Shown: positions 30,956 to 56,179 of the stretch, one piece after another
Numbering within the stretch: position 1 is the first letter of the stretch
How the letters are laid out: each line of letters starts with the position of its first letter
Translations under genes and position numbers: made by a program
The notes under the pieces: model-generated
Told to the model about the DNA's origin: nothing
The model's database searches: none
What the model saw: only the letters and a program-made list of their open reading frames with translations
Source: Polytrichum commune
Lineage: Eukaryota > Streptophyta > Polytrichopsida > Polytrichales > Polytrichaceae
Length of the DNA stretch: 64,000 nucleotides
Assembly (NCBI GenBank): GCA_950295325.1
Contig: OX485807.1
Span: forward strand, 40,456,440-40,520,439
Direction: 5' to 3'

Positions 30956-30958
30956 GGT

Positions 30959-30998
30959 AACACTATATTCGTTAAATTGAGACTTTCTCTAGTCTCAA
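30959..30998. repeat. Left TIR of element B with adjoining hairpin
   Basis: The 28-bp TIR starts AACACTATATTCGTTAAATT. Its inner end forms a short hairpin with neighbouring sequence: TTGAGACT, TTCTCT loop, AGTCTCAA (30977-30998). The right end lacks this exact hairpin but repeats a TTGAGAC motif 15 bp further in. Confidence 0.93.
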
Positions 30999-31489
30999 AT
31001 TAATATATGGATCAAACAACATTCCGTGTTCCGAAACTATATTGAGAACAATCTCAAATATATTATATGTTCTAATATCCCAAATCTATTATGTGTGGAC
31101 ATAAGCATATATGGTAGAGCACTCAACACCAACTTCATCAACAAAAACACTTTGGGTAGAGCACTCCAAACTAGTTTCACCCAAAAAACATATAAAATTA
31201 TTTCTATTATTAGCATGTTCAATAAAATATAGACCTTGCAACATACAAAGTGCATGCAATAAATGTATATTTCTTCAATGGAAAATTTAGTCCCAAACTT
31301 AATAAAAAAATGAACTTCACAATTGTATTGAAATATAGTAAATGGATATTCATCCAACCCCAAACAATATAGCATTCGCAAGTTCTACCCAAACTTTGCC
31401 CCAAGTTTGAGGAGCACACATATGAGTAATATATATTCATCGAATTACATATTACACTATAATCATGCTAACACAATCCTACCAACTTC
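30999..31489. other. Left subterminal region of element B
   Basis: AT-rich, no coding. Contains a short direct repeat (GGTAGAGCACTCAACAC and GGTAGAGCACTCCAAAC at about 31112 and 31158) that might be a subterminal binding motif. No GTTTGGGTCG palindromes. Confidence 0.5.
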
Positions 31490-34414
31490 TCATTCAACGT
31501 GGGTTGCTTCTTCTGCGATCCAAGCAAGGTTGTCTTTTGCAAAAGTTATGTACTTTTGAGGGATGGACACTGATCCACTATGATTTTTCCGTGATTTCCA
31601 TGCTATAAATATGGAATCTGTATCTACCCAAGATGGACCGTGCTCAGAATCCACCTTCCACCGAAAGTGTTGGTTTGTATCCCAGCCTGTATAATGCTGA
31701 ACAACATCTTCATTCCGTGCTGTCGGTCGGTAGTACTCTACTTGTATTTGTCGAAAATGAGGGCTGGAAGTTACAAAATTTGGATTGGACAAAGCTCTTG
31801 CCACCCACAATGGCTTTGCATATGTCTCATCTCCAGGACGCAAAATGAGCATATAACCTTCATGACAATCCACTGCAATGCGGAAAGATGGTGGCGGACG
31901 ACTACTAGCAGGCCCCATGTAATGGTCGTCCACATCAAACTCCTCTCGAATCTCTCCATTTCCCAAAAGACTAGCCTCCGAAGGTTGTACATTGACACGT
32001 GTTTGTGGCGAAAACCCATGTCTTAAAGTAAGGAGTGTATCTTCATGAAGGTTTGCCAAAGCGCCACGAACACGTGTCCAATATTGTATCCAACTTCCGT
32101 AACGAAGCCAACACGATCCACCAACATCCGCTACCCTCAAACTCTCCCAATATTGAATGAAGTCTGATATGCCTTTACAAATGTCCTCCAAATTCTTCAT
32201 GGGTATTGGTTTGCAAGGCTTAGGCTCTCCGTCAGGCAACATCGTCCTTCCCTCCCCATCAACACGCCATACAAGGAGACCCTCCGACGGGCTCCAGTCT
32301 TGTGATGTGCACAACAACTTGTATTGCATGGCGGAGACACCATCGTCACGCACGTAGAACCGAAATTGTTGTGCCTTCGTATGCCCGATCAATCGGTGAG
32401 CTCCGCTTCGAATATACGGTTCTATAAATGCCTTGAAGTCTGGAACCTCCTCGATCATATGGGGGATGATTGGAATGTTCTCCAAATCCATGTACGACTT
32501 CATCAACAATGGGATTGTTGGAAAATCCTCCTCGCGCAACTTCATGCTCCACCGCCCAAAAGATGTATCGATATCATCGTGCGTGTGGCCTACCAATAGA
32601 AAGGACACAAAAACCTCCTTGAAAATGCCTTTCGCAACCAACAACGACCAATATGCAAAAACATATCTACTTTTATTGTCCTTCGCACAATTATCCAATT
32701 GGACACGCAGAGTTGGGGGCAAATTCTTGGCAATCACATCTGCACTTGGTGGCTCCGGCAAGAAGTGCACGCATACATCTCTTCCATCCAAGACCGCTTC
32801 ATATAGAGGTGTTAATCCCGAGTTTTCAAATAACAATCTTGATGAATAGGACGGCGGTTTCTCCAAATCACGTAAAAGCTTTGCAAATGACCCTATCGTG
32901 TGGTTTGAATCCGCCGGATACAAATCAAGAGCATAATGAGCATACTTGACATCCCCATGTCCATGTGCAATCATCCCTGCAAAGCCAACCCAATGGTTTA
33001 ATATTCAACTATAACACCAAAAAATTCACATGGTGTACATCTATGGCCCCAAGTACAAACCTAAAAGCACAAATTTGTGTTTAGGTAATGCAATGCAATT
33101 GTTATCGAAATCACCTGTAATTGATACAGGAAGCTTAAAAAGGCCGTCTGTGGCTTTTATTCGATTTGCAAAACATGGTGAGGCTGTTTTGGCATGGTCA
33201 ATTTTGTCATGGATGATTGTAAGGACCTCCAAAGGCCTAGAGATGGACAAAGCTCTATTTGTGTAGTAATCATTACGGTGTGTCTCTTGCATGTTCACAT
33301 GCTTGAAATAGTTCATTTGATGTGCGGCATAGGACTATGTCCCCATCGTGTGTGCATCTCGAAGGCGTTTCAACTTCTCGCATTTGGAACAACGGGCAAA
33401 TTTGTCGCCTCGTCTTTTTGTGATGTATTCGCTAAAGTTCGATTTTTTGATTGCACTCAGTTTCAACAACGAAATAGGGTCCAACCCAGCCTTCTCGCCA
33501 ACTGCGTTTACGTCCAACAATATGTCTTTTCATTTCGTGCCTGTAGGAAGAACCTTCTCCACAACCTTTTCACCGGTTGCGAGTGTACGTGTTTTGTGCG
33601 GCATTGCATCGGCAAGGGGGACAATGATGGTTGCCAGAGTGGCTGTTGTTTGTCTCGTTGCTTCTCTTGGTTTTTTTAAGCCCATATTCCCATGGTGACG
33701 AGACCGGCGTCCTTCCTTGGCATACGCGGCTTGTCTATAAAATTCCGCTTTCGACACACCGTGAATGGTATACCATGCCGTACAACACACGTCTATGCTC
33801 TCAAGGGTGATGACCTTGCGACCCGCTCCGTTCACATGTATCGCCCTATGGACATCAAGCTTTTTGGTGGATCTTAGACGGAAATCTCCAAGCCACATTT
33901 CCTCGCGGATGGCCTTCAATTTATCCCTTGGGAACAATTAGCAACAACGATGTACACAACAATCCTTCGTAGCAACTTCTCTAATAGACTCCTCACAGAG
34001 CAACCTTTGACGTTTACACTCATTTGCAGACGGAGTAGGACGTACCAATGTATCGTACTTCCGTAGGCCTTTGCGTGGCCTAATGTGTGCTTGGAGCTCC
34101 TGTTGGATTTGGATGTGTCGTCGCTCATGGTCATGCAAGCTAACCCCCTCAATTGTCACATTCCTCAACGGCCACCTTCGCAACGAGAACCTATGAGTTG
34201 GATTCACTTCGGAATGTACGAGTGATTCCAATATAACAACTCCAACATCCTCGGTGCCAAGGGGGTTTTCATCAATACAATCTTGTGGATGTGTGTTACG
34301 ACAAATACCCTCCGCCATAGCAACTCCATTGTCATTAACAAGTACCACATCCAAATTCACCCATGAAGCTCGTGAAAGCCCCGCACATTCCACAATGGGG
34401 CAAAAAGGTGCCAC
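31490..34414 (-). pseudogene. DUF7869-like transposon protein with three in-frame stops
   Basis: Two exons on the minus strand, 34414-33115 and 32976-31490, separated by an intron with donor ACAG|GTGATTT and acceptor TTTGCAG|GG. The junction is in frame and gives 928 codons. Conserved features match proteins I know as DUF7869-containing, widespread in non-seed plants and animals and thought to be transposon-derived: a CCVHRC motif, a Cys pair in FARCSKCEKL, HVNMQETHRNDYY, the QLDNCAKDNKSRY block, and SFLLVGHTHDDID. The Asp/His-rich blocks suggest an RNase H-like core, an inference. Three stops interrupt exon 1: TAA at 33940-33938, TGA at 33532-33530 and TAG at 33337-33335, all in one unbroken frame. 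Each could come from CAA, CGA and CAG by a C-to-T change. No frameshift is seen. The start is uncertain; an upstream in-frame TAA lies at about 34440. Confidence 0.8.
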
Positions 34415-35517
34415 GGGGAGGTCACTTAGTACATTTTAAAAACGACGTGCGGCATAATATAGGGAGGATTAAAATCATTTGACATAAAAATTATAAAAGA
34501 ATTCCAAATAATGAAGGGTCCATTAAAATTACATAAGCCCATTACAAGTAAAATAGATAGGTATAAAATACGGGCCATTCCCTTTTAGTAAAAATAATAT
34601 AGGGGCTGAAAATAAGGATCTTAGGATGTATGTTTAGTAGAATCAATTTCGTACGCATGCCTCATGAGGGATGGATGAAAAATTACTCATCATTCACCCA
34701 AAAATGGATGAAATTGGAAGCCTAACTCTATGCCCGACTTCTCTTGGTGGTTTTTCTCCCCTTCTTTTTTGAAACTCTTCAACCCGTTTGTGTTTAGGGT
34801 TTAGGATTGCTTGTCGTCATCCTCTTCTCCAATCTTGTGTAGAGTTTTTTAGCCAGGCTGCGTGATCTGATGCGGAAACCTTGAAGGTATGAAACGATCC
34901 ACAGTTTTGTTTTTGGCTCTAACATAGCAGTTCTGGAAGTCGTGGATTAGAAGCAGACGTCGTCGTGGAAGTCCATTGGAAGAGCCATTTTCATTGCTGA
35001 TTTTAAGTCAGATCAAGGATTCTGCTAATGAGATCTGTGGTCTTAGTGTCTCGGGCTTCTATTCTTCGTGAGGTTCGTTCGAGCAATACTATTGTGCAGG
35101 ATTCCGTTTTTAATTTGAACACGATTTAGTCGTTCGTGCTGCGAATTTGAGGTGCTTCGGAATACAAACACAATACGCCTTCCTCGTTAGCGTGTGGCTC
35201 TCGTTCTTTGCGGTAGTTTTGATGTGTTTTGGTTCTAATGTAGCATTTCTTGAATAGTGGACGTCGTGAAAGCTATTGAAAGAGCGATTTGTACGATCTG
35301 AGAGCGGGTCCTTTCGAAAGCGTCTGTGAGTTTAATGCTCTCTGCCGCCATAGTTCGATTATTTTTTATGTGATTCGAGCGGTACTAATAATCATTCGAA
35401 TGCTGATTTTGAATCCACAGTACCTCGAATTTGAGGTATGTCGGATTACAGACACAAAATGCACCGAGTTGTTTGGGATGGAATGTGCACTTGTTGGATA
35501 GGTTGTCTATCATTTGG

Positions 35518-35540
35518 TTTAGGGTTTAGGGTTTAGGGTT
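35518..35540. repeat. Interstitial telomere-like TTTAGGG run
   Basis: Three TTTAGGG units within the divergent upstream region of element B. Confidence 0.8.
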
Positions 35541-36719
35541 GAACTGCGAAGGTAGAGCTGAAGCACGACAAGGCGGTCATTAGTGTTCTGTGTCATCAAA
35601 TGTGATGTTCATGGGAATGGCCTGTTATCAGTTTCAGATTTATCTTTAGATTTACCACATTATGAATCTTGTATTATGTAGTATTTTGGAGCATGATGTG
35701 CCCTATGCAATCAACTGACAAGGCTTCTTCTGTTTTATGTTGCAGGAATACTTTGCGGGTATGACCGGAAATGTCATTTTTGGAGGCCCGATGGAGCTGG
35801 GTATCTAAAGGCTTGCAAGTTGAGTTCAAGATTGGAAGTGCTCATTGTTGGACAGAAAAGCTCTTGGAGTCGTCTCCAATCCTGCATGATAAAGGTGATA
35901 GAGGTGATGATTGCATGCTTCCAATTTTGACGTCACCCTTTACCCTGTTTGATGACCTACTTCAACTTTGTTGATGTTGTTGTGGATCATTGGCATCATT
36001 GATGACATGAAATTGTGCACAGATTAATACACCCCTGTATCCATTTTGGGTCATCTTTGCAGCTCGTAACTTCAATGATGAAAAGTACTGTCTCCGAGCA
36101 ACAGGAAGGTCGCAAGGCAGGCGAGTGAGCGCATTCCTTCCTTCCAAACCAGTGAATGGGATGTAGTGATTCTCCGAAAGAACACAATTTTGTGATTCAT
36201 TTGATATGTGCCTGCAATTATATTCTCTACATCATTTTCTGAATTGAATTTTTCACTCACAACTTGGTTGCATCTTTCTGATTCTTAGACTTTTATTGTT
36301 GAAAACCTTGCTGCAAGTCAGCCAGAGAGACACAGTTTCAAGCTAGAGTACAAATTGATTCCAGATCCAATTTGATGAATGCAGACAATACCACAAATGG
36401 AGGCTAACTCCTGGTTGCACTCTTAACTAACTTTCCACTCGTTCGTTTGTTTGTGTGTATAGCGGTGCAGGAGGCTGTTTGAGGATTTCACCGTGCTCAT
36501 GTGTAGGAATTGGAGATCTTCCCTTGTAAGCAAGAAAGTGTGCAAATGATCATCGCCTATCTAGTACTCTTCCGAGGTTGTTCAATCTTGTCGCGCCAGC
36601 TGCACTGTTGGAGATCTTGGAGGCTGACGTTGTGACGTATGTGAGGTCATTCTCTGGCGTCTTCGGAGGCGGGGGAGGTGGCGAAGGGGTCGACCTTGTA
36701 CATGAGTGTTGTGGTTATC

Positions 36720-36930
36720 AGGGATTGGGGAGATTTTAGGGCACAACCGGTTGACATCCTAGTGTTTGCAAGTCGAACCAGTTACATGTTCACATCCTCC
36801 GGTTTTCCTTTATTAAATTGAGGTATATTCTATAAATTCCTATGAAATGACCGGTAATTTTCATACAGTCTTGAACTTCGACCGGTTTTTTCTCAAATTC
36901 AACCGGTTCATTTGTATTCTCCCCGATCGT
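36720..36930. repeat. Repeat shared with 22117-22340
   Basis: Same orientation and block order as the copy upstream of the RING-like gene (see 22117-22340). Here it lies about 1 kb upstream of the transposase candidate start. Confidence 0.65.
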
Positions 36931-37913
36931 TGGTGGTTATTCTGATTGTCAGTCGGTTCCTGCTCCCGAGCTTTGCAGGAACTAAGCATAGCGCAGGAAG
37001 AGAGTACCAATATCGTGTTGCTTGTTGTCCTCGCATTCTCCAATCTTGTGTCGATATTTTCACTAGGCTGAATTTTAGGGTGCGAAAGACTGGAATCGGT
37101 TCGAATCGCTTGCATGCTGATTGCACGGTTAGGTGCAGAAAGGCAGGTTGATTTCTCATCACGAATTCTTGATGAATTTAAGCAGATGGTAAGATCAGAG
37201 TATATAGCATTTGTTTTTTGTCTTCCTCTGCTTCTCCTGCCGTAGGTGTTTAGCCAAGCTAAGTTGCACACCCTTTTTCACAATGATCTACACATGGTTC
37301 AAGCTTGATCACAACTCATGTTCACAAATCCATGTACAAGAAATCGTCTCCTGCACCACTGAAGCTACAATATTTCGTCCAGAAGTGGTCGGTTTGCCAA
37401 GAAAATTATACAAATTTTGCAAATCATTGAAATAATGAATCCAAATTATTATTTGAAACATAATCTAGATTATATCTATGATTATGTTACATGATCTATG
37501 CCTTTGTGAAACCTTTGGAAGAGCCCGTTGTGATTGTTTGATTGAGTTCCCCGGGGGTTATCACTATAAACAGTTCGAGCAAAGTTTCATTGTCTACATC
37601 GATCTATTTCATGCTTCTCATCATTTTAAGCATGCATTTGCAATTTCTGCAAAATATGCAGCTCGCCATGATGTACTAAATGGTCGATTGTTGTCTTGAT
37701 TAAACTGAGATTCACAACCTTTGTTCACCATCATCACTACTAGATCTTTTGCTAGTGTCAACTGCAATCATGGGTTTCCACCAAAAATCTTGGGAATGAT
37801 TTGTGAACAAGGGTCATGTCATGATGGCTTCTTCTTGCATAAAGGAAAAATTTGTACATGTCTAGCATGTTCAGATTCAACCTTTGATAGGGTCGTTGTG
37901 TTGGTGTTTACAG

Positions 37914-40900
37914 ATGGCAACTCAAGTGAAGTTGTGGACTCTGGAGAGAGATTTTGCTATGCCTCAATATTATAGCAAGTTGAAGGTTTTTGAGGAGGAG
38001 ACATACGCCTCGCTTAGGGTTCGTTTGGAAGAGAAATCAGCGTTGGAGTGGCCATTTGAGTTTTGGGACCATGACGATAACTGTAGGATTCGAGAGAAGA
38101 TGGAGGGTTTGAACGATGTAGTAGGTGATGTGTATGTCTTGCCGCAACGGAGTGAGACGGAGGGAGCCCCTAAACGGCGTCGTCTAGACGATGCAAGTCA
38201 CATAGCAAATCAAAATCACCAACAAGTGCCGGATGAGGAGTTTCCACGGATTGAAGAGGACAATGGTGACGAGCTTGTGGAGCCTCTCGGAAGTTGTGGG
38301 GTTACTGGTTCTATAGGGATAACTGATTCTTTGGACCACCAGATGAACTCAACCCTAATTCCCACTGATGTGTGGGAGCGATATCTCGAATATGCAGAGA
38401 AGATGAAGAGGGATTTGAAGTGCTCATCGCAGGAAGACAACCGATGGGTGTTAAAGTCTTGGGACTTTAATGGTAATGGAGTGGTGAAGATCTTTTGCAT
38501 AGAATGTCGCAAGGAGATTGGGGGAGATAGTGGAAAACATGATAAAATCAACATTCAAAATTTGTTTAACAATTTTAAAGCAAAGCATTTGCAGTCTACA
38601 AATCATGTGAAGAATTGGTGTCTTAAAAACGACATAAATTATCATGATCATCCGCAATCCATTGCACCTAAGGGCAAAGGCGTGCATCTCACTCCTGAGA
38701 TGCACAAAAAACTCATTGAACAGGGGGTTGATGTTATGGAAGAAGTGAACTTGTCTTTGGATGTTGCACATAAAACCTTCACAGTGCTAGGGACGTTCAA
38801 AGAATCTGCCCCAAAGAGTTTTTGGATGAAGGTTAGATGCTTCTATTGTAGGGATTTGATTAGCCTATGCCCCCCCCAAGAACAACTTGGAATGGAATTT
38901 ACGACATCATTTGGCATCCACAAAGCACTTGAGGGCAGTTGAAGCATCTAAGGCTAGTGCAAAACGTCCAACTGCAATTTTTAGTGGAAAAAAAGGGAGG
39001 CCAACGCTATCATCTAGGGTTAGTGTTCATTCTAACCAACCTGATCTTGGAAGATGGTGGAAGGCAAGAACTACTAGTTCAGAGTCCCAAGGTGGTGGAG
39101 GTGAGTCATCTATTACTGATCGCAATTCAATTCTTGGGTTGATGTGTTGGGGTTTTAGAGGGCCAACCTTCATGTACTCTGATGTATCGTATTCAGTTAA
39201 GGAATTACTTAATGATCCTCATGTTGGGGGAGTTTGGTATCCTGAACCACATGTTAGAGCAAGTGTTATTGTGAATGGAGAGACCATTGACATTAATGGT
39301 ACGTTTAGACATAGGTCATGTAATAGAGTGGATACCTCTGGCTCTGGATTTTTAAGTCTTATGTGCTCCATGTGCTCTGCAATCCCCTTGGAAAATGATT
39401 TTAGGAAAAGGGTCTTACGAGAAGATATTACATTTCAAAAAAGGGGAACTCGGAGCACTGGGGCAGGGAGGAGAGTTGGATATTTGTCCAATTATGAACT
39501 TGCTAAGCACAGTTATGATTTGAGTAGAAAATTAAAAATGGAGAAGTTCTTGCATTCGGCAGCTCGGGCTAGGATTGTTCAGTTGAAAGTGAAGCGTCCA
39601 ACTCTACGGGAACTAGCAAGAGAGGCTTCCTCCGAGCATAATGTAATTAAATTTTGCACAAATATCATCAACGCTCATAGGTGTGGTGCATTTGGTGGGA
39701 AACCAGCATTATGGGATTTTCTTAATGATGTTGCACAAAATATAAATCGGGATGTTAGAGGGAACCGATATAGTGATAATAGTAAATGCCTAGGGGAAGT
39801 TATGAAGGTTTATGGTGGTCGTCGAATGGTTGATCTATTTTCTTTAAATTTTGCGGGTCCAAGCTATAGTCAAGTTAAGAGAGATGTAAAGAAAGGAGTA
39901 CAATTTATACCTGGTGAGCATGCCGAGATATTTTCTGCGGTAGCCGAAATATATCGGGATGCTAAGTTGGCTCATAATATTGTCGGTCCAGTCCCGGTTA
40001 TCCTTGCCAAGGATGAGACAAAAGTGAAAGGAAGAGTGGCGTGGGAATCCAAGTGGGATACTCTTGCTGGATTTTGTGGACCATCTGAAAACCATGTTTG
40101 TGTATCTGGTTTTAGACCTGTCGTAGGTTGTGGTGAGGATGGATATCGTCAAATATGTACATCTTTCTCGTCTAATACGAAAGGTTCATTTGCCCGTGTA
40201 GTAGTTGTAAACCCTTTACATGATAAATTACCTCGTATTGTTTTAGTTGTATGTTGCACATGTAACTGTTTCAATTCCTCTTGGATAAGAAACCAATGGG
40301 AAGTCATTGACAAACTATGGGAAATTGATTGCCTTGCTAGTGTGGGTCCTATAGTGGGGCATGCTAGCGATGGTGATTCCCGCAGGAGACAATTAATGTT
40401 GGCAGATTTCAAAAGCACGGTAGGGAATCGTCTTGATATAGGGTGGGAAGGATGGATGTTTACGGCATCCTTAGATGAAAAAGGCAATGCCAGGGGATTG
40501 CACGACCAAGATTATATTCACAATGGTAAAAAAATAATCAATCCTTTGCTTTCAGCAGCAAGGACACTACAACTTGGAGGAGATTTGTGTCTCCACCAAC
40601 ATATAGAGCTAGTGTTTGAGCAATTTCAAATTGAGGAGCATGGTTTAAAATTGGAAGATGTTCATAGAAAGGACCGGCAGAATTGGGCATCAGCACAAAG
40701 GTTATGTCAGTCAAAGGTCAGGGCATGTTTGGCACGGATGCGTAGTGTGGACTACCCTCATAGAGAAAGAACTATGGGGACTGAATATTATTTGGAAATT
40801 TGTGCGAATTACATTGATATTTTTTTGTCTCCCATATTAGACCTTCGTTCACGGATTGTATTGTGTGGCAAAGTGTCATTTTTTTTCCGGATTTGGAGAC

Positions 40901-42402
40901 TATGGCTTCAGAATGGAGATCATGGTGTGTTGGGGAATTCACAAAAATTGGTAGAGGCAAAAAACTTTGTGAGTTTACAATGTTTTTTGGACATCCAGCT
41001 ATCGTGTCATTTTGTTGTTCTTTTAATCTGCCATTTCAGAGACAGGTACCCGGAACTAGCTGTTCCGCTCCATTTGACGGGAAGTGATTCATGCGAGATA
41101 TTTTTTTCAAAAATTGGGGGCATGAACGGGCAAGAGCGTGCATATGACTTCCACGAGTTGGTTAATAGCGCAAACATCTTGAACCATATCTCTGCTATAG
41201 AATATGGTAAGAACGGATTAGCGTTCAAAAAACAACACAATAAGATGGAGAATGTTTGGGAATCACTTCATAAGCTTCAACCTGGAGAGCAACGATGCAA
41301 TTTGGGCGACTATACGGCGATAACCTCAAACGCCGATGTGATAGCCGCGCTGCAAGATGGATTGAAAGAGGCCCATGCTTTGTTCCGGCCTTTGAACATG
41401 GCTCCAAGTACACAATGTCTAGCCAAAAAAAAAATATGGTATGAGAAGCCATGGCTAGTGGAGAAAGCAGATCCAACAAGTTTTGCTTACAAACCAAATG
41501 TTAGGCCAGTGTTAGGAGAGGATGGGGACTCTGAGGTATTGAGGGACCGGTTACATATAGAATCTGTGGCATCAGTGGATTTTGTAGATTCATCCCAAAT
41601 GGGAGATTCCATTGAAGATGATGTCATCGACGATGGGTTGCAACTATCCACTTTGGTAGAAGAAGAGACTCGTGATGTCATAACGGACCTACTTAATCAG
41701 GCGAAGGATCAGGTGACCTCAGTACAGAGAACCAGAAAAATTTTGCCAACCGTAGAAGTTGATGGGCATTCCATTTACAAGTCAACGTTTGTCTCGCAAC
41801 TCAATGGTAATGTTTTTCTATCCAAAGATAGATTAGCAAGAATTAAACATAGTATTCATTTCAACAACCATGATAATTGTCTCCAAGCAAGATCTTCATG
41901 TGGATCAAGTTTGTTATCTATAGGATCTGATTGTGGGGTGCATTTTGTCCAACGGAGCACAACAATGCTATTGTCAACTGTAAAAGCTGCTGCCAAACGA
42001 AAAAGGGGACGTTCAATGACTGATGTTAAAGCTGGAAATGCTACTAACATATTGAACGGAGTAGATTCCAGTTCATGGTGGGTGGGTAGGGTGCAGGCTA
42101 TGCGGCGGCGCAATGGGAAACAATTTGGAGTACTTAGGCAAGCGGTTGACCTTCTTGCTCGAACGGAGGAATCAGGGAGGAGAAATCCTAATAATCCCCA
42201 CATCGAAGTAATGTTGCAATATTATAGAAAATATCCAGGCCGTAACAAATTTAAGTATGATCACACGGATAGCAAATGGATTGATGTAGATTGCATTATA
42301 TCTACGGTAATAATGAGCTACAATTCTAAAAATGAGGTGTACACTCTTGATAGGAATGATTCAGAGCAACTGTCCAAGTTTGTGACAGAACAAACTATAT
42401 AA
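37914..42402 (+). CDS. Zinc-finger, RNase H-like transposase candidate (~1495 aa)
   Basis: One long frame apart from a single extra C in a C8 run at 38870-38877. Before it the frame runs 37914-38942, after it 38887-42402. The ATG at 37914 directly follows acceptor-like TTTACAG. N-terminal ~90 residues are unassigned. Two U1/BED-like C2H2 fingers follow: CIEC...KHLQSTNH and CFYC...HHLASTKH, each C-x2-C...H-x5-H, on either side of the C run. The central and C-terminal part has possible catalytic acidic residues in HASDGDSRRRQ, HDQDYIHNGKK and GSDSCEIFFSKIGG; the last two resemble the Asp and the D/E-x-FF positions of P-element and hAT-like RNase H transposases. An acidic stretch at about residues 1190-1260 and a basic KRKRGR run follow. 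The remaining 700 codons have no stop, so this is the best candidate to move the element. Which family it belongs to, and whether it acts on these ends, is unproven. Confidence 0.75.
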
Positions 42403-43261
42403 GATTCATGACCAAGCTTAAAGTGTTTCACACTATATGGTTTTGGTCTTCACTAGCATGTAAAGTGATTTTGAATAAAGGATTTTTATGGAGCGGGTGT
42501 TGTGTTTGTGAACACACACACAATCTTGTTGTGTTTGTAAACACACACTCAATCATGTTGTGTTCCATCCTAAGTCTTCTTTTTGTATTTTTACTTTAAG
42601 TTTTTGTACTTGGTTTTTGCAATGGTACGTAATTTTTATATTTTTTTGTTGCCATGCTTTTCCCATCACTTTTGTAGTGCATACATTCTTAAATTCTGTT
42701 TTTTTAATTAAAAAGAATATAGACTACAAAAAATTTCAATGACATGGGCATTATAAGTAATGATAGGGTACAAAAAAATAGGCCATTTTAGAAAATTATG
42801 TAATTATAGGGAGCTTTTAATTCGTGCCTTGGAGGTAAATAGCCCCTAAAAAAATACCCCTCCGCCGTACGTGGTACACAAAAATCCTATTGAGTGACCT
42901 CCCCGTGAAAGGTGCAGATGTCGAAGGACTCCCCAAGTCACCTTCATCTGCACTGTCATCAAAACTATCCTCCCCGACAATGTCTAGCTCATCCCCAGAC
43001 GTAGATTGGGTGTTGCCCATGTCGTCAGAGAAGGAATCCCCTCTTCCACCAACTCCCTCTATTGCGCCTACACACATGCACATGAAACCTCAACACACAT
43101 GGAAAGAATGTACGGGTCCAAAAGAATCAAATATCGGAAAATGCAAGACACCATGATCAATGGGGACACCGAGGATGAAGACATTTCCAACACAACTACA
43201 ATGTGACCTCCCAACAATGTGCGTAAGTCCAAAAAAAGTTCCAGAAAATATTTTGATGGGG
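42403..43261. other. Spacer after transposase candidate, with small ORF remnant
   Basis: AT-rich to 42836. From 42846 to 43156 an open plus frame contains LLSDLPV and a Ser-rich stretch; its DNA around 42885-42915 matches, inverted, the start of the DUF7869-like frame at 34395-34437 (14 identical bases GTGACCTCCCCGTG plus a looser match outward). The product is not recognised and neither strand can be called a gene. Confidence 0.4.
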
Positions 43262-46130: not shown

Positions 46131-47655
46131 AGAGTCGGGCTTTCGAATTTAGGGTTCCCTATATCCCTATTCCCGTGGGTGCCCTAATCCTGTGGGCACC
46201 CTATTCGCGCGGTTGGGGGCCAATTCCCGAGGCAAACAAAACCCCAACCGTCACAAAATTTCATTCTTTCTCTCTTACTCTCCGCGCCAAGCATACGCTC
46301 CGCGCCTCGCTTGGAAGCGCCGCCTCTCCTGAAGCGCCGCTTTCGCGAAGCGGTGTGGCGATTCAGGCTGGGTATAGCTTTTACATCGTTTTCTCCCGCA
46401 TCTTGCTTGTTTTTCCTTCTTCTATTTCTCTCCTTTCTCTTGCGATAACAATAGAATAACACTTGTGCAACCTTGGAAGTTAGGAAGAGTTTAGAAAAAA
46501 CCAGAAACACACGGAGGAAGGTTTTAGGGCGTGAGGGTGAAGGAAAAAGTAGGAAGAGTTGTTGGAAGAGTGTTGGAAAGTGTTGGAAGAGAGTTGGAAG
46601 AGTGTCCAGGAGTTCTTGTGAGATTCGGGAGTGTTTGTGAGGTGCAGGTTTTGTGAGTTTGTGTTGTTTTAGGTTTGTTTGATAGATTCAACAGTTTTTT
46701 TGTGAGATTCAGGAGTGGTTATATCTTTGAGGTTTTGGGAGTTTGTGTTGTTTAAGGAGTGCTTGAGAGATTTCGAATTCGTTTAAGAGGTATAGTAGTT
46801 GTGTGTGAGATTCAGTAGTTGTGTGTGAGATTCAGGAGTTGGTTCAGAGGTTCAGGAGTTGGTTCAGAGATTCAAGAGTTAGTTGAGAGATTCAAGAGTT
46901 TTTTGAGAGAATTTACAATCGTTTGGAAGCCACAGAACCAAATCTATTCCAAAGTGTCTGCAACACATCTTTGAAATGTATTGTGTTTTCTTATATCCAC
47001 AATGTGAGATGGTTAATTCATGGTTTGTAGCATACACAACGCATAAGCATTGTATATGCTTCATGCCAAGTTAAAAATATATAATAAAATAATATTGTTT
47101 GGGGAGACGACCCAAACACAGCCTCTTGTTTGGGTCGATCGACCCAAACACAGGATCTTGTTTGGGTCGTCCGCCCTAAACATGTCCTCATTTTGGGACC
47201 CTGACCCCTAAAGAAAGCCACATGTCTGTGAACCTAAACACAAAACAAAGCCTCATGTTTTGGTTGTTCGACCCAAACATGGCCTCATGATTGGGAACCT
47301 AAACCCAAAACAAAGCCTCATGTTTGGGTCGCCCGACCCAAACACGACGTCTGAACAAGAAAAGTATCAAAAAATCCTTCAAATGCCCATAATTGAAATT
47401 GATGAAATCATGTACATACACATATATTATACTAAATACACACAAACTCTCTAACGAGGAACCATCATAGGTCTATTTCAGCACACAAGGAGCACGAGCC
47501 ACCAAGTGTTCAAGGTTTCGGTCGATCGACCCAAACCTTGAATTTGGGATGGTCAATAAAATACATTTGTTCCATTTCCACCAAATGTTAAATGCATTGT
47601 CGACTACTTTGGGTCGATCGACCGAAACTAATAGTTTCAATTTTTGGACTTACAG
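46131..47655 (+). promoter_or_regulatory. Promoter and 5' leader of cargo gene, copy B
   Basis: A GC-rich, CT-rich stretch at 46150-46350 containing AGCGCCGC repeats resembles the start region of copy A. It is followed by tandem G/T-rich units (GAGATTCAGGAGTTG(G/T)TT) at 46590-46920. Palindromes, partly decayed, lie at 47097-47345, with further copies at 47512-47535 and 47611-47631. The coding ATG at 47656 directly follows the acceptor-like CTTACAG. An untranslated first exon with a 5' intron is likely. Confidence 0.5.
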
Positions 47656-48975
47656 ATGGCCCCCAAGAAGAGACCTGGAGAAAGGTTCTTTATGCTCGCG
47701 CCAGACGTAATATGGCAGAAGTATGAAACTCCCTAGGACGACTCATACGTGCCCAAGGATGGGCTCGTCCTTGCGTGGTCAGTTCAAGTTGTAAAGGGCT
47801 CCCAGTTCAAGCTCTTGTTCGTGGTAAAAGTAGGGACCCACGAGAACCACACTTGGACAACGTTGACAGGATGGGAGGTTGCGTCCGTCCAAGCCCTCGG
47901 AGATTACATGGACGTAATTCTCGAGAACTCCGCCGTGTAGAACGCCCACATGTTCATGCACCAGTTCTCCGAGTCATTCAACACCATATACGCCAAGGAG
48001 TCATGCGTGGAGCCTGAAACAATTAAACCGGAGACAATTTTCATAGATGGCAATGTAACCAACACGAAGGTTGCAAGTAGGTTTACAAAATTGAAACAGG
48101 CTATCACGGTCCTCAACAAGGCGCTGCAAAGTAAAGCCAAAACGCAGCAGCCTGTGAGGCGTAAGGCAACGGCGGAAGAAGGCGCAGGGTCGTCCAAACC
48201 CCAAACTGTGAGGAAGCCGTGTCCGGTCCCTGCAGACTCCAGACGGACTAGCACTACAGGAACGCCGGCTGACAGTGAGACGCCCACACCGTCCGGAAGC
48301 CGGCAGACGACCCCGTCGAAGAGGGCGAGAGAGTCCTCCGTCATGACCATCGAGCCAGTTTCCCCGGAGCTGCGGATGCCGAAACCTGGCCAAGAGGTGG
48401 ATGCAGGCGAGATACAGAAAATCAATGATAACTTCGAGACGAAGTGCCTGCATTGCTTCTTCATGGGCAGGGACTTCAAGTTCGAGGTGAACATTGCACA
48501 GTGCCACCTTGCGCCACATGAGAAGTGTGTTCGAGCCAAGGAGGACGCCTACGTCGACTGGATGGTCGCTCAGATCTTCGGAGGGCAATTCAAAGACGAC
48601 AGGCAGACAATTGTTGTCATGCCCCAAGGGCTAAAGAAAATGCCGACGCCTGAAATGTGGCCGGCAATATGCAAAGGCGACTTCTGGGTGATTGACGGCC
48701 AGCACAGTGTGGAGGCCTCTAAAAAAATTCAACTGATGACCGAGTGGGACGACCCCAATAACCAAAAGGAGAAGCTAAAGGTGTGGAAGGCATTGGTGGT
48801 TTGGTCTGACAACGAGACCGTACTAACCGACATCTCACGCTTCTTCAACATGGGGAACAAGAAGAGGGCGTACCAGGCATCCTGGATTCGGAACATCATG
48901 GCCTCGAGGGAGATGTGGGAGTTTTACGGCAGGCCTCCCAAGGAAAGGGAGAATGCTAAAGACAAGAACCCAAAA

Positions 48976-49953
48976 TTGTCGCGCACCTCTCCATGAGGAG
49001 TGCTCGAAACACCATGGGCACAAGGGGGACCCCGGAGTGACACCCGGGACTTGTGGCGCGGTTGGTGAGAGGGCCCAAGTGATCCTAGTGTGGGTGAGGG
49101 CCCCGGGCGTTGGGAACGCCTCCCACCCACGGAGACTAGGAGGCACAAGGGTAAGGCCATGAGCTATGCGTAGCTCATGGCGTGGTGATTCTAGAATGCT
49201 CAAGACCACCTCAATCGGAGGTGTGAGCTAGGAGTTATGGCCATTTGAGTGGGACGCTGTCCTGGGACAGCGCCCTGGTACAGCAGTGCCTGGGAGTGAT
49301 TCCCGGGACTGCCAAGGTTCAAACAGGCATAACTTTGTTAATACTTGCCTGTATGGGGCAAGTGAAGAGTTCATCGGCATCTACGTGAAGCGTAGATGAA
49401 GATGGAGTGGTTGGTTGTTAGCATCAGACATCATACAAGGAAGTTATGATGGTCTGAAGCTGCTGGGGGCTTCTAGGCCCAGCGGCTAAGGGAAAGTGTC
49501 CACTTGGCCCCAACTCTTGGTAGAGAGACAAGAGGTTGGTTGATGGTGGGGTAGGGGCCCCGCGTAGAGTCCTAGAGGCTTATATGGGTGAGGTGGTGTG
49601 GCCTCACCCACCCGAGGCCGAACGGCATGGCCTCCATGGGCATTGGCCCAATGTGAGGCCATAGTTGCCTAGTATGGTTCGAGTTGTTGTAGTGTTGCTC
49701 CGGCAACGCAATGATCAACATGGGATTGGACTTCCATGGATGAAAGTCCACATCTAGGAATGGGTTACCGATTAAGGGGTGAGTCCCGAAAGCAAAGTAG
49801 GAGGGTTGGTTCCCCTCCTATGAACTATATGGTCCGGGGTAAGAGGAGCTAACCATTAGCATGGCGGAATGCGAAGGGTTAGCGACTCGTAACCTTTGCT
49901 AGAATTGAAAATTGGCAAGATTGTCAAGGGGCGGCTAGCAAGGGTTGCGACAA
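48976..49953. mobile_element. 978-bp miniature element inserted in exon 1 of copy B
   Basis: Ends are TTGTCGC at 48976-48982 and GCGACAA at 49947-49953, with the 3-bp duplication AAA (48973-48975 and 49954-49956). Copy A has the empty site CCCAAAATGGG at the same codon, so the borders are exact. No coding region; moderately GC-rich interior with several short inverted repeats (for example CTGTCCTGGGACAG near 49258). It splits the last two codons of exon 1, six bases before the splice donor. The short TIR and 3-bp duplication do not settle the superfamily. Confidence 0.9.
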
Positions 49954-49970: not shown

Positions 49971-50162
49971 GTTTGGGTCGATCGACCCAAACTCTTGCAT
50001 TGTTTAAACAACCTCGTCAGGTTTATAGTTTGGGTCGATCGACCCAAACTCTTGCATTGTTTAAACATCCTCGTCAGGTTTATAGTTTGGATCGATCGAC
50101 CCAAACTCTTGCATTGTTTACTTTTCTTGTCAGGTTTATAGTTTGGATCGATCGACCCAAAC
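49971..50162. repeat. Intron 1 palindromes, 57-bp period (copy B)
   Basis: Four copies at 49971, 50028, 50085 and 50141 with central AT; the last two have one substitution. Same position relative to the donor as in copy A, which has seven. Copy-number change by unequal exchange or slippage is the simple reading. Confidence 0.95.
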
Positions 50163-51574
50163 CTTTCATTCACAGTTTTCTAACGTGTGTTATTTACTTC
50201 ATGTGCAGGACTTCAAATACCAGATGATCAACAAATTCTCCTCGATTGACAACGCTTCCCACAAGCAGAAGAAGTACAACGAGCTAAGAGGAGAAATTTA
50301 TTTGATCACAGCGTCTGACTCCGTGTGGGGGAGATGGAAGAGTGTTTTCGAGAAACACGAGACGGGGGACCTCATGGATCCCGACACCGGCATGCTCTTC
50401 AACCAGACTCCGCGCTTCAAGCAAATGAAGCCTCTGGCGAGGGAGCTCTTCAGAGCTCTTCAAGGTCTTTCGGAGACAGAGATGGGAAAGGCGGCGTCCC
50501 ACATCCTCCACGTGCAGCCGACTGCGAAGAGATGCTGGATCCACCTGAAAATCGTCTTCATCAAGCCCAAAATCTTCGTGCCTTCATGCTACACCATGAA
50601 GGAATGGACGGAGAATAGGAAAAAGAAGACGACCATTGTCCAGGAGCTGCACAAGCTGGTGTCGGAAAGGAAGCTCATAGTGGATGGAGAGGTCGACGAG
50701 GCGCACTGGAGGGCATTCAAAGCCGACTACAAGTTCACCAGTGCGTCCATGGCGGCACTCATCAGGAAGGCGGGAGACGACTTCCTGAAGTCCAAGCTTG
50801 TGAAGGGGGGGAGGAACCGGGTGCTTCCCGAACAATCCACGCGTGCCTTCTCCAACTTTATAAAGGAGAAGAAGATCGTCAGCTTCAAGGGCGACGCCTA
50901 CTTCAACTTGGTCACCCTCGAGCCTCTCAAGATCCAAGGCTGGCCGGGCTCTGATGCCAAGAAGGCTATCAGGACAAAAAGCCAGGGACCGCTTCCCCTT
51001 TGGAATGATAGACTTCAGGAACATCCCTGGAGCCTCATTTGAGGGGACAATGAGCACCCCGTTCTACGAGCCGTTCTTTACGAAGTTTGTGGATTACGGC
51101 AGCCCCAAATTCAGGGAGGTCAACGTCTGGCTGTGGATTGTCGAGGACAGGAGGGCAGAGCAGGTGTACGAGATCGTGCGGAAATTGCAGCCAGAGTACG
51201 CCGTCTCAAAATCTCACTACGTTGCTACACCGGCGGAGGGGGCGTACAACACGCTGAAAGACAAGAAGACGAGGATTGTCAACGTGCTGTGCTTGTACTT
51301 CATCTACAAAGCTGAGCTGCTTAAGGTGCCAAACCATCCCATAGCCAGGATGAAGAAGCTCTTCCAAGTTCAAGAAGGGTTGGGCTCCAGCAGAAGCTTG
51401 TACAACGAGGCAAAGTATGCCAACTACCCCGCGGATGAGCTGCGCATGGAGTTCTACCTGCGGATGATGAGGACGCTCACGAAAAGAGGGGACTGCATCT
51501 TCAATATCTTCGGGGGCTCCAAACCGGTTTTCGCAGCCATGGTAAGCAAATAACCTGAAGGAACTATATGGACG

Positions 51575-51667
51575 GTTTGGGTCGGGCGACCCAAACTAGG
51601 GGCACGGTTTGTTTGGGTCGAGCGACCCAAACTAGGGCATGCATTGTTTGGGTCGCTCGACCCAAAC
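51575..51667. repeat. Intron 2 palindromes (copy B)
   Basis: Three copies with central GG, AG and CT; copy A has four. Confidence 0.95.
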
Positions 51668-52887
51668 TAACTATTATTGTTTTTTTTGGGTGTCATTTTT
51701 CCTTATTCTTCATTGGTGATACTAATACTATTGATTTGGATTGTGTAGATGTCTGGGTTAAACATCTACTCCTATGTGGAGGATGCCGATGTTCAATTCT
51801 ACAGGACCCAGAAGGCGCTGGCCAAGAGAATGGACATCCTCGACTGGATACCCGGATCCTACGTCGAAGAGATCGTCGAGGGGGGCGAGAATCCTTTGGA
51901 TATGGCGAGGCGAATCAACCCGGGTGAATTCGCCATGTGGGCCCCCATTCAATTGCCAGAGCCGCTCATCGGGTTGCATCCAGGCAATCCGTCTATGGGA
52001 GCAGGTGGCGAGGTTGCGGAGGAGGGGGAGGAAGAGGAGGATGAGGAGGAAGCAGAGAAAGTGGAGGAAGCAGAGAAAGTGGAGGGGGAGGTCGAGGAAG
52101 GGGCAACATGATTCACTCAAGAATCCGAGGCCCCTCAGCGGAAGAAGGCCATGCGGGCTGCCACGCCGCAGAGCAAGCTAGTGCCCGTCCTCACGGTGGC
52201 CGACGCGAAGGACATGTATTCGAGGGATGTGACGGCCACCTTCAGGGAGCGGCGAATGCTGAAGGGTAAGAAGTTGTACGGGGACTATGCGGTGGAGGAG
52301 ACGATCGCCATAAGCTCCGAAGACGAGGACGACATGGAGCTCGCGAAGAGGCTCAAGTCGGATCCTGCCTCCCCCGGAGGGTTCGCTAGGAATGTGAGGG
52401 TGAAACCCGAGGTCCTCACCGTGGAGGAGGCCAACGCGAAGATGCTCCGGGACGAGGAGCAGCGCGTTCGATTGCAAAAGGCCGCCGCCGAGGAGCCCTC
52501 GGTCCGCAACGAAGTCGCGGAGTTGAGGGCTCTCCTGTTGGAGCAGGAGCGGCAAAGGGCGATGGCCCCACCTCCGTCCCAAGCGGACCTGATCACGCAA
52601 GTGATCCAGGGCATGCTGGCGCAGGGATTGGTGATGGCTCCCCCGAGTTCATTCCCTCACTTGCCCGCAGGCTTCCCTCCACAGGATATCGGCCCGCGGC
52701 CCACGCCGCAGCAGTCCTTCAGCTTCGGGCATTTGCTGCAGCCTCACGCCCGCCCTTACGCGCCCGTCCAGCAGTTGGACGACCCCAACCTTTGGCGCGT
52801 CCCCGGATCTTCCAGCTCGTTGGCACCCCCGCCGCTTCGGCCTCCCATCCTCTTGCCCCCACACCACCAGCGGGACGACCCCCACAT

Positions 52888-52978
52888 GTTTGGGTCGTCC
52901 GACCCAAACAGTGCCGACGTTGCAGCGTCCCAGAGCGACGCTCGCCAAGCAGCAGGGTTTGGGTCGGCCGACCTAAAC
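52888..52978. repeat. Two palindromes inside coding exon 3 (copy B)
   Basis: At 52888-52909 (intact) and 52957-52978 (one C-to-T change, turning DPN into DLN). Same positions and reading frame as in copy A. Confidence 0.9.
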
Positions 52979-53260
52979 CCCGTCCCCGACCAGACCCCGG
53001 TGGACGAGCCCATGTTAGATGTTGAAGGCCCGCAAGGGCCTGGTGATACCTCTACTCCTAACCCAGTCGATGAACCAATGCATGATGCGCATGCGGAGGT
53101 TGGGTTGGGACAAAGGCCTGACAGCCAGCCTTTGCAGGAGCAGGTTGCGGCTGACGTCGTTGTCGGAGGCGGCGGTGACAGAGGTGGGGCAGCGCACGCG
53201 ATGCCGGCATCAACGTCGTCGAGGCACGACCAAGGCGAGGTAATGCACTGACCCCACTCA

Positions 53261-53282
53261 GTTTGGGTCGGTCGACCCAAAC
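53261..53282. repeat. Intron 3 palindrome (copy B)
   Basis: Intact palindrome with central GT, 22 bp behind the donor of intron 3, identical in placement to 13023-13044. Confidence 0.9.
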
Positions 53283-54736
53283 TCCCTGGATCTTTGATTT
53301 CTTGCCTTGGTCGTGCCCCCTAGCTACCCTAAACTCACGCACACGTCTCCCCCCCCCCCGCACTCGCGCCCTTCGCCACATCCCCCCGACCATTCGTTCG
53401 TCCACATACCCTCGACTTGCGACGAAGTCTTCATCACGGCGGCCCGTCTCTTCAATTTTTGCTAGATGTAGAAGTAGGCTAGTTTGAACGTATCGTTCAA
53501 CGCGGCTCCCCCCAATCAAGATGTACATAGAGCATTGTATACAATATAATCGCCATTTTTTACTCCTATATACTTGTATCTTGTGTTTGAATGTATGTTG
53601 TATGCTCTTGCCTCTCTTGTGTCCCTTGTTGCACCCCCTCCAAAATGAATGAAATGGTTTTGTTTTTGCACCGAGAACGCTCGTTTCTTTAATGCTTCCT
53701 TTGGACATAGCATGACATAAGTCGCCCACCGTTTTCTCTCGATCGTATCTGCAGGGCTCGGAGCATAGCGTAGCGGCCCCCCGACGCTCTTCTCCAAGGA
53801 GCGGAGAGGGCAGCACGGCGGCCCCCCCCCGATTTTACCCGCCCCGCCCCCGCGGCCGAAGAAACGATTCCTGGTGTTAGACCTGAACGGGGTCCTCGTC
53901 CAATGCGTTCATTGCCCTAGGACCCCCACGGTGCCCTTTTGCAAGCCCGAGGACGCGAATTACGACGGGCCGCCCACGTTCATAAAGAGCAAGCTAGTTC
54001 ACCTCCGCCCGTGGCTTCGGACCTTCCTAGAGATCGCCCAACAACGATGGTGGGTGGTCGTGTGGAGCTCCATGACGGCCGAGAACACCAATGCGGTCGT
54101 GGAGTTCATCTTTAAGGGCATCGAGCCCCCCTGCATGGTCCTAGCACAGGAAGCTTGTAGAATATTGTACACACAGGACGGCAAAGTCGTCAAAAAACCA
54201 AACAACCCCGCTTCCCCCCAATATCTCAAGGTCTTGAAGCCCATTTTTTGGGACTAGCGACCGTCTTTGATAGGCGTCCCCTACGACGTCCGCCCCACCC
54301 GCGAGAACACGCTCATGGTGGATGACAGCGCCGCAAAGAACATGTTGAACCCGACGGCCAACTTCATAGTTTGCCCTACGTGGACGGTCGAGAAGGTCCG
54401 GGACCGGTTTTTGTTAGACCTTGGTAAATACCTCCAGGCGCTCTGGGGGAGCGGACTGTCCGTAAACAATTTTGTTAGGAATAATCCGATAGGCGAGAGA
54501 TACTTGGATCCACGAGACCATTTGTACAGAGAGTTGTTATCTCACGCGAAATTTAACAAGCTCATTTGAGACACTACGTGTGTTTGTATGTGTATGTATG
54601 TATGTGTGTGTGTGTGTGTGTGTGTGCGCGCGCCCGTTCATTTTGTGTAATATATGCTTCATATGTATCTTGATTTTCACGCGCTCTAGCAAACCCTCTT
54701 CCTTTGGGTTTTGTTTCGTTTCCTTTTTTGCGCCAA

Positions 54737-55560
54737 CGTTTGGAGCCCTCGATTGACATCGTCAGCGAGTCAGACTTGGGGAGCTTCTTCTACGAGACCG
54801 TTTACGACGCCGCGTCGACCATTGACTACTCCAAGGAGCCTCTTGACGCAGGCGTCGTCGATAGCTCCCCACCCAAGCAAATCTTCCGGCGATCTGCGTC
54901 CCCGTCGCCGCTCAAGGGCATAAATCGCAAATGCGTCCGGACATCCCCCTCTCCGCCCGGCGGCAGTATTACACCTCAATGGCGGCTGCGGATGGACGCT
55001 TGGCCTACGAAGAGCGGCACCCTTCCTATCCCTTTGCGGGACGCCTTGCCCCTCCTCGCCAACTCGGACGCGAACGCCCCCCGTGACAAGGTGAACCCCC
55101 CCCCCCCCCCCCCGCCCTCCCCCTCCCAACATGGTAAACCGCGCTTTACAATCATTTTGCACTTAAAAAATGAACGTGTGACACGTTTGGGTCTTCCTCC
55201 CTAAACTAACACATGTGTTCTTGCATTCACGCGTTGCAGGTTGCTTCCACCCGTAAACCTATGCGGGCTAGTGCGTCCGTCGAGTTGGAGCGTTTCTACT
55301 CCATGACCAGAAATGCAAGACAGTCCATTTCATCGTATAATTTGAATTCTTCGTCGTATAATTCGGGCGGCCGACGGAATCCAAAATGTGTTATAGAGGG
55401 CGGTCAACCCAAAAATGGCTATAGTCGCGGGGCAGAGATTTTCAGGAATGTTCAAGCAATGCGAGCAAAAGAAGCCGCAGCAAAAGAAAAAGAGGCAAAA
55501 ACAAAAGAGGCAAAAGAAAAAAAGGCAAAAGAGATAGAGGCAGTCTTCGAGGCTAGATAG
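54737..55560 (+). pseudogene. Basic, low-complexity 3' exons of cargo locus, copy B
   Basis: Counterpart of 14504-15307: exons 54737-55090 and 55240-55560. The reading frames are open, but the acceptor of the first exon is GCGCCAA instead of the GCGCCAG of copy A, so the AG required for splicing is lost. The last exon has one extra codon. No family recognised. Confidence 0.5.
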
Positions 55561-56176
55561 GCCATAGTAGGCGTAGGGTTTTGGACCATAGGCAATATGA
55601 TTTTGGGTCGCACTATCCAATGGATGTGTGGTGTTAGCATGCTATGCATTTTACGTGCCATACTTTGTATGTTTTTTTTTTTTCAATAATATAAGTGTCA
55701 CATGATTTTGCCTTCAATATGGTTTAAGGTTTGGAGTGCCTTATTGTGTGCATTAATATGAATGTTTTAAGATTTTCCCTTCAATAAGATCTATGGTTTG
55801 GAGTGCCCTACCTAAACCATATTCATACAAGCTCTCATATTTTGTGTGCATTAATATGAATGTTTTAAGATTTTCCCTTCAATAAGATCTATGGTTTGGA
55901 TTGCCCTACCTAAACCATATTCATATAAGCTCTCATATTTTGTGTGCATTAATATGAATGTTTTAAGATGTCCCCTTCAATTTGGTCTAAGGTTTCGATT
56001 GCCCATCCTATACCATCACAAATATGAGTTATTAATGGGGTTCTTGGTCTAAACACCCGCTTCAAAGTGTTCGCATCTTACAACTTTCACCAATATGTGT
56101 TCCATTTATCCTTGTTCTTATTTCTGTGAATGTCTCAAAATGCCCAAAAAGTCTCAATTTAACGAATATAGTGTTT
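55561..56176. repeat. Right subterminal region and TIR of element B
   Basis: About three tandem ~115-bp units (from about 55710 to 55990) with decayed GGTTTGG...CCTAAACC palindromes, then a unique stretch and the right TIR at 56148-56175. Closely similar to 15308-15924. Confidence 0.85.
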
Positions 56177-56179
56177 GGT

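Follow-up and report, generated by a model that had tools for sequence, protein, structure and literature searches.

Why would a transposon carry dozens of copies of one palindrome beside and inside its own genes, and why would its relatives in the same genome each carry a different one? The question is raised by a stretch of 64,000 nucleotides from Polytrichum commune (NCBI GenBank assembly GCA_950295325.1, contig OX485807.1, positions 40,456,440 to 40,520,439 of the forward strand), here called the window, in which a giant cut-and-paste DNA transposon interrupts a copia element. The transposon is roughly 17 kb long without the second transposon nested in it, and it has hundreds of copies in the genome. 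It encodes a protein with the domain DUF7869, probably the transposase, and on the opposite strand a helper protein with ParB-like and methyltransferase-like exons and a NIF-type phosphatase. Its most unusual feature is its private palindromes, which are concentrated in elements of its own family and absent from the sibling families that we read. We lean, by a little, towards the view that the helper protein uses them to recognise copies of its own family, working like VANC of the VANDAL elements. The features of the element, with exon borders inferred from open frames and E1 and E2 denoting two other copies of the family, are as follows (TIR, terminal inverted repeat):

30955-30958: left target-site duplication, CGGT
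30959-30986, plus strand: left TIR, AACACTATATTCGTTAAATTGAGACTTT, followed by L-type subterminal sequence
31490-33004, minus strand: C-terminal exon of the DUF7869 gene, putative DDD transposase (Pfam PF25273, 8.6e-42)
33938-34435, minus strand: remnant of the N-terminal DUF7869 exon, broken and also cut by the nested element
43262-44251: palindrome array A, GTTTGGGTCG-NN-CGACCCAAAC, 17 sites, on the 5' side of the DUF7869 gene
45475: single further palindrome
47128-47628: palindrome array B, 6 sites, on the 5' side of the ParB-like gene
47941-48996, plus strand: ParB-like exon, open part, with the motif VIDGQHSVEASKK; stops lie upstream in this copy
49971-50162: 4 palindromes in the inferred intron between the ParB-like and methyltransferase-like exons
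50086-51553, plus strand: methyltransferase-like exon in two frames (50086-51042 and 50864-51553), motifs DFRNIP and FGGSK
51575-51667: 3 palindromes in the next inferred intron
52112-53251, plus strand: third exon of the helper, acidic and proline-rich
52888 and 52957: 2 palindromes inside the third exon, reading FGSSDPN and FGSADLN
53261-53282: last palindrome of the element
53769-54257, plus strand: NIF/FCP1-type phosphatase exon (Pfam NIF, 5.6e-9), 162 codons open here and 281 in E1
56148-56175, minus strand: right TIR, R-type end
56176-56179: right target-site duplication, TGGT

How tightly are the palindromes bound to the family? Seven of the eight window-family elements counted carry between 28 and 43 of them, and the 22.8 kb of the window outside the elements carries none. 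Across the genome, exact forms of this palindrome (P1) were found 3328 times forward and 3461 times in reverse, self-complementary sites being counted on both strands, with zero for the control; P3, the palindrome of another family, has 713 sites. Of 77 P1 sites listed, 39 lie inside exact TIR pairs, which cover 0.88% of the stretch concerned, and another 24 within 20 kb of an unpaired TIR. For P2, the palindrome of the sibling family F2, 36 of 50 listed sites, counted by eye, fall between paired F2 ends, one such pair being 56 kb apart. On contig C1 of the assembly, at 2159706-2159887, six palindromes of the window type follow one another every 32 bp; the closest exact TIR among those listed is about 30 kb away.

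The places in the genome with a DUF7869 match fall into several families, five of which were read: that of the window, F2, G3, G4 and G5. F2 elements have the ends ATGGGGATATTAACTAAAATGAGAC and ...GAGCC (49 + 46 ends), commonly about 25 kb apart, the right ends being taken from 10 copies and the left from the 9 with a left end listed; the copy read is 25,116 bp long, and the 4-bp target duplication is exact in all 9 pairs examined. That F2 might be a small element of 3.8 kb was rejected, its other end being found about 25 kb away. Its transposase is 52% identical to that of the window over 256 aa, and it contains a NIF gene and a ParB-like exon of the GQY type; its second helper exon is related to the corresponding exon of G3 (26%, E 4e-10). 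The gene set of F2 recurs in G3 (NIF, 4.4e-13), whose ParB-like exon shares 34% identity with that of the window over 346 aa (E 1e-48). In G4 the transposase is distant and, in the copy read, interrupted by a stop; it is accompanied by a VDGQH exon and a methyltransferase-like exon. G5, added after G3 and G4 to test the same point, is a degenerate family: its transposase contains a stop, and its methyltransferase-like exon is 28% identical to that of G4 (E 9e-20). No NIF was seen among the listed open reading frames (ORFs) of at least 180 aa in G4 or of at least 120 aa in G5, and the ends of the G3 and G4 elements were searched for and not found. Wherever a GQH or GQY motif is present, in four families, the helper gene lies opposite to the transposase.

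Do these relatives share the palindromes? The four families with a ParB-like gene each have their own, 22-24 bp long and present at 16-43 sites per element (24 in F2, 16 in G3 and 21 in G4). In a four-by-four count of palindromes against families, with up to four mismatches allowed, all the cross counts were 0, and 20 shuffles each of E1, F2, G3 and G4 gave no palindromes. That families with a ParB-like gene carry palindromes of their own had been recorded as a prediction after F2 and before G3 and G4 were fetched, and both bore it out. The layout recurs as well: in four of four families the palindromes stand on the 5' side of both the transposase and the ParB-like gene, and three of the four (the window family, F2 and G3) have further sites in the inferred introns of the helper.

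What could such sites be for? A dyad of 10 + 2 + 10 bases kept in arrays beside genes, in introns and in coding sequence would suit a dimeric DNA-binding protein, and the family-private sequence points to a factor encoded by the element itself. The helper is a better candidate than the transposase because it diverges faster (between E1 and G3 its ParB-like exon is 37% identical, the transposase exon 66%), because its own gene holds many of the sites and because the sites of the window family lie far from the element's ends, F2 having single sites near both. We infer the binding, the binding partner and its effect as follows. The ParB-like/methyltransferase-like protein, as a dimer, would bind GTTTGGGTCG-NN-CGACCCAAAC arrayed beside both genes and in the helper introns; it would thereby recognise the copies of its own family and keep them expressed, most likely by countering or rewriting the chromatin or methylation mark that the host deposits. 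Within this module the NIF-type phosphatase would act as an effector, and F2, G3 and G4 would do likewise with their own palindromes. That the recognition would serve to keep copies expressed is proposed because VANC of the VANDAL elements has the same anatomy. Such self-recognition, specific to each family, is the reading we would back if only one could be chosen, as slightly more likely than not. In a bolder formulation, on which we are evenly divided, giant Sola-1-like transposons of this plant would have evolved an address system like ParB-parS independently of VANC: the diverging ParB-like/pseudo-methyltransferase protein of each family (with a phosphatase in three of four) would recognise, by tens of copies of its cognate palindrome, and epigenetically regulate its own family alone, palindrome and protein would diverge together, and one genome would hold four orthogonal pairs.

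The coding blocks are under purifying selection between E1 and E2. The ratio of nonsynonymous to synonymous divergence (dN/dS) is 0.10 and 0.20 for the two DUF7869 exons, 0.05 for the methyltransferase-like exon, 0.12 for the first part of the third exon and 0.18 for the NIF exon; for the ParB-like exon dN is 0.092 and dS is saturated. The ParB-like frame is open in many other copies, 494 codons being common among 118 matches (116 of 1022 candidates were scored). The window copy itself is probably non-autonomous, since its N-terminal transposase exon is broken and cut and its helper exons contain stops or frame changes. The phosphatase is placed in the NIF/FCP1 family by Pfam scores of 36.3 bits in the window, 43 in F2 and 49.7 in G3, with a cut-off of 21.8. 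The third exon of the helper contains hydrophobic-then-acidic stretches (IAISSEDEDD, VLELSDEDEDE, VICLDSDDD), which we take to resemble SUMO-interacting motifs (SUMO, small ubiquitin-like modifier).

Several observations weigh against helper-based self-recognition, and the first of them concern the names of its domains. Neither the ParB-like nor the methyltransferase-like protein has a Pfam match above the cut-off, and the former has no meaningful match in the PDB. The best PHROG match is a ParB-like partition family, weak at E 0.0087 for G3 and 0.079 for the window; the G4 protein had no PHROG match and the best one of F2 was another family. An hhalign comparison of profiles joined only 16 columns (P 0.0033, against 0.19-0.93 for 12 controls). 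The ParB name is given because of the motif, the marginal PHROG matches, this 16-column match and the algal precedent described below, and the identity it suggests is weak. Two AlphaFold models, from alignments of 3 and 2 window sequences, had mean predicted local distance difference test (pLDDT) values of 32 and 34 and were uninformative. Other points concern the sites. Fourteen of the 77 listed P1 sites lie outside the pairs and more than 20 kb from a TIR, eight of these being near a listed DUF7869 exon, and 14 of the 50 listed P2 sites lie outside F2 pairs, two of them no more than 10 kb from an F2 end and the other 12 elsewhere (counted by eye). A 4.8-kb deletion copy of the window family, the eighth element counted, has exact ends, an exact duplication and no palindromes at all. 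Its junction is spanned only by its own place among 40 scored matches (of 764 candidates), so this copy may have been deleted in place, and because the junction was found only once it does not show the palindromes to be dispensable. G5 has no GQH or GQY motif in six frames and no palindrome array; with the stop in its transposase it neither supports nor cleanly refutes the proposal.

Could the helper instead mark its own copies? A ParB-like-guided DNA methyltransferase would then lay N4-methylcytosine or N6-methyladenine on them. DNA methyltransferases of the N4/N6 type have a DPPY-like catalytic motif and a motif that binds S-adenosylmethionine. In the window protein the order of methyltransferase-like motifs can be followed by eye and an FGGSK-like motif is seen, but the DPPY position reads DFRN or variants of it: D-x-R-x-x-P is common to four families at this place, and a variant stands in G5. 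The domain may therefore be inactive. No library match rose above the cut-off, and the name follows from the motifs and the algal precedent only. The profile did match an engineered cytochrome c555 trimer in the PDB (E 3.6e-6 over 35 positions), which has no bearing on a methyltransferase. The reading given to the Ectocarpus transposon Sola1-1_Ec32, in the accessible part of its description (PMC12477816), favours marking; we hold it unlikely here, and still the strongest of the competitors.

Two other explanations we consider improbable, to the same degree and somewhat more so than marking. The first makes the palindromes binding sites of the transposase, for synapsis or autoregulation, and the ParB-like gene unrelated cargo. 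The TnpA sites of En/Spm are a precedent for transposase binding, four families have both a transposase and palindromes, array A stands next to the transposase gene, and F2 has single palindromes 239 bp and about 210 bp from its ends, a point that counts against the helper. In the seven window-family elements with palindromes, however, the outermost ones keep a distance of at least 3.8 kb at the left end and of about 2.7-2.9 kb at the right, unlike subterminal sites, and many sites lie in the introns and third exon of the helper. The transposases of the window family and F2 have also diverged less than their palindromes, which are unrelated, and G5 keeps a DUF7869 gene, albeit with a stop in the copy read, without an array or a GQH motif. 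The second takes the palindromes for functionless ancestral repeats kept alike by slippage and gene conversion. Private sequences are indeed expected if each family has one ancestor, much of the palindrome count sits in tandem arrays, and homogenisation within each family could have kept inherited repeats alike. The arm columns are alike at 0.93-1.0 in E1 and 0.94-1.0 in E2, but the sites behind these values had been selected for resembling the palindrome (up to four mismatches), which favours alike arms. Against neutral repeats, sites occur in E1 and E2 at several separate places including introns and coding sequence; although the two central bases vary and so do the spacers, which differ between E1 and E2, the 10-bp arms remain alike, and neighbouring synonymous sites are saturated; and the same two gene-flanking arrays are found in four families.

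How firm are the borders on which all of this stands? A preliminary description of the window had reported a single 25.2-kb unit with 28-bp inverted ends, GGT on both sides and a copia reading frame restored by excision. The inverted ends stand, as an identical 28-bp pair at 30959-30986 and 56148-56175. The 3-bp duplication gives way to one of 4 bp, CGGT/TGGT with one mismatch, which sets the borders of the element at 30959-56175 (25,217 bp including the nested transposon); the former right end, 56176, lay one base too far. Another 20 copies were picked by hand, not at random, among the pairs of contig C1; the 4-bp duplication is exact in 19 of them and reads AGTA/ACTA in the other, so 3 bp was rejected. 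The empty site also holds up. Joined flanks (300 + 300 bases, one copy of the duplication omitted) leave one frame open for 175 aa across the junction, and the right copia flank has 16 matches in the genome, the window among them, of which 5 of the 15 others were fetched: all five are uninterrupted, with contiguous flanks and a single 4-bp site. An assembly artefact at 30958/30959 and 56175/56176, for which no support was found, can be dismissed as vanishingly improbable given the many like-bounded intervals with matched duplications elsewhere in the genome.

The element was thought to be rare, which is wrong within this genome. A search of the 408-Mb host assembly with the TIR pattern, allowing up to 2 mismatches and listing 100 places, found 589 forward and 595 reverse matches, with 0 and 0 for a reversed-pattern control, so that other intervals bounded by these ends are plentiful and a giant TIR transposon with exact borders and an empty site is now supported by many copies. 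On contig C1, 68 of the 90 listed ends pair into 34 elements of 4.8-44 kb (median 17.4 kb), 21 of which are 14-19 kb long. Nor is the element a 25-kb unit, which was rejected when alignment with E2 exposed the nested transposon of 8,496 bp. Less that transposon and one copy of its duplication, the element measures 16,713 bp against 16,707 bp for E2, and smaller differences in length remain in its middle.

What kind of transposon is it? The protein with DUF7869 is probably a DDD transposase, a reading based on conserved D motifs that match the DDD pattern. The second and third D lie in LDNC and HTHDDID of the C-terminal exon; the D of LDNC/ADNC and of HTH[DE]D[IV]D is invariant in 6 sequences of 5 families, among which 25 columns are invariant, including D103 and D143 of the window protein. 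IIHDKMD or IIDGMD is seen by eye further upstream in exons that reach there, and the N-terminal exon is open for 519 codons in E2. In one G4-type transposase copy S replaces D in ADNC, so variants of the catalytic site circulate. DUF7869 matches were scored at 150 of 1490 candidate places in the host genome and found in none of 14 control genomes; a scan of viral contigs gave no match to the protein, a scan with an alignment gave 66 pattern matches, none confirmed, and tblastn searches of phages gave one match at E 0.5 for the G3 ParB-like protein and none for that of F2. CACTA/EnSpm elements have TIRs that start CACTA and make 3-bp duplications, and membership was rejected on the ends, AACACTATA, with the 4-bp duplication outside the AA. 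PIF/Harbinger elements also make 3-bp duplications and were rejected on the 4-bp duplications of the window family and F2. The Sola superfamily, reportedly described by Bao in 2009, is said to have 4-bp target-site duplications, and Sola-1 has a DDD transposase. With 19 of 20 exact 4-bp duplications in the window family and 9 of 9 in F2, the element is best called Sola-1-like, the likeness being one of layout and duplication length. The preliminary description could not name its contents, which is understandable in that Pfam names only DUF7869 and NIF; the layout, on the other hand, matches a giant Sola-1 transposon of Ectocarpus, as far as the accessible part of PMC12477816 describes it. That description also says nothing of the private palindromes in its account of this element.

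The window element is also a mosaic. Its left 3.45 kb is 96.6% identical to E2, and its right 6 kb 88.7% identical to E1 and 76% to E2. Between E1 and E2 synonymous divergence varies about tenfold from segment to segment. It is 0.16 close to the right end, 0.28 and 0.48 for the transposase, 0.74 for the phosphatase and 1.1 for the third exon, and it runs from 1.6 to saturation for the first two helper exons. With identity and synonymous divergence so uneven along the element, exchange of segments between subfamilies is the simplest reading. About 1 kb between the ParB-like and methyltransferase-like exons of the window element (48976-49953) is absent from E1 and E2. The remaining features of the window are these:

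34404-34411 and 42908-42915: 8-bp duplication AAAGGTGC flanking the nested transposon
34412-42907, plus strand: nested DNA transposon, TIR CACGGGGAGGTCAC..., 8,496 bp, of a separate family
38860-42402, plus strand: ORF of the nested element, 1180 aa
1-15923, plus strand: second element of this family (full length 19,733 bp), of which the right 15.9 kb lies here
8072-9590 (two frames), plus strand: its ParB-like exon
10265-11299, plus strand: its methyltransferase-like exon
11874-13013, plus strand: its third exon
13485-14336, plus strand: its NIF-like exon
30100-30958, minus strand: copia target, RNase H side
56180-59567, minus strand: copia target, reverse transcriptase to gag side

The left end of the second element lies 3,810 bp before the window, its duplication is TGGA/TGGA, and its exons were named by likeness to the right-hand copy. 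The 1180-aa ORF was rejected as cargo of the giant element, since it belongs to a separate repeat family (39 of the 1594 first-look candidates across the genome were scored, giving 40 matches); its protein, with the stretches KDETKVKG and HASDGDSRR, matches no Pfam family. The copia element is flanked by direct repeats of 354 bp, 96.6% identical, at 28978-29331 and 59802-60155, probably its long terminal repeats, and just beyond it, at 61113-61703 on the minus strand, a pectinesterase-like ORF was noted by eye.

What is new here, and what was known? A literature search found no paper on DUF7869, and searches mostly outside subscription journals turned up, among the papers listed, neither family-private palindromes alongside genes of this kind nor this element in a plant. 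The private palindromes, in four of the five DUF7869 families read, are new; the giant Sola-1 layout with a ParB-methyltransferase gene is already known. How a transposon evades silencing without disturbing its host is, in our judgement, an open question with few worked examples. If the proposal is true, the four helper/palindrome families would be ready orthogonal pairs for DNA recognition and a direct test of coevolution between protein and site, with possible use as sequence-addressed tools for epigenome editing. It would also add a plant to the algae whose giant transposons carry ParB-type accessory genes, and DUF7869 would gain a likely function, that of a transposase.

Which known systems does it resemble? 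In bacterial ParB-parS a ParB-type protein reads palindromic sites on its own replicon. The element likewise combines a putative ParB-type protein with palindromic sites on itself; it differs in that it sits within a plant chromosome, its homology is marginal and no ParA-like match was found among the scanned proteins. The closest layout is that of Ectocarpus Sola1-1_Ec32, a giant Sola-1 transposon of 21.5 kb whose opposite-strand gene combines ParB-like and methyltransferase domains; its giant families, too, are described as having nested transposable elements and pseudogenised transposases (accessible part of PMC12477816). Compared by layout, both are giant and pair a transposase with an opposite-strand ParB-like/methyltransferase gene. 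The host here is a plant, and the NIF-type phosphatase in three of four ParB-like families and the private palindromes in four of four are not mentioned for Ectocarpus in that part of the source. The same pairing of domains, going by description, occurs in transposons of green and red algae (Iyer 2011 and Petroll 2025, as cited in the accessible part of PMC12477816).

The anatomy, as opposed to the domains, recalls the VANDALs, which are Mutator-like: family-specific arrays stand beside genes in four families here, and in introns in three of the four. In the accessible text of PMC5735166, VANDAL motif arrays are placed within introns of both VANC21 and VANB21 as well as upstream of VANA21, they differ from one related family to another, and the transposase is more conserved than VANC. 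The VANDAL21 motif, YAGTATTAC, is not a palindrome, and VANC has DUF1985 and DUF287 and no ParB-like motifs; anti-silencing, inferred here, has been demonstrated for VANC (same source, as accessible). What the two systems share are family-specific arrays in the introns of a helper and upstream of a transposase, with the helper the less conserved of the two proteins (PMC5735166, in its accessible part).

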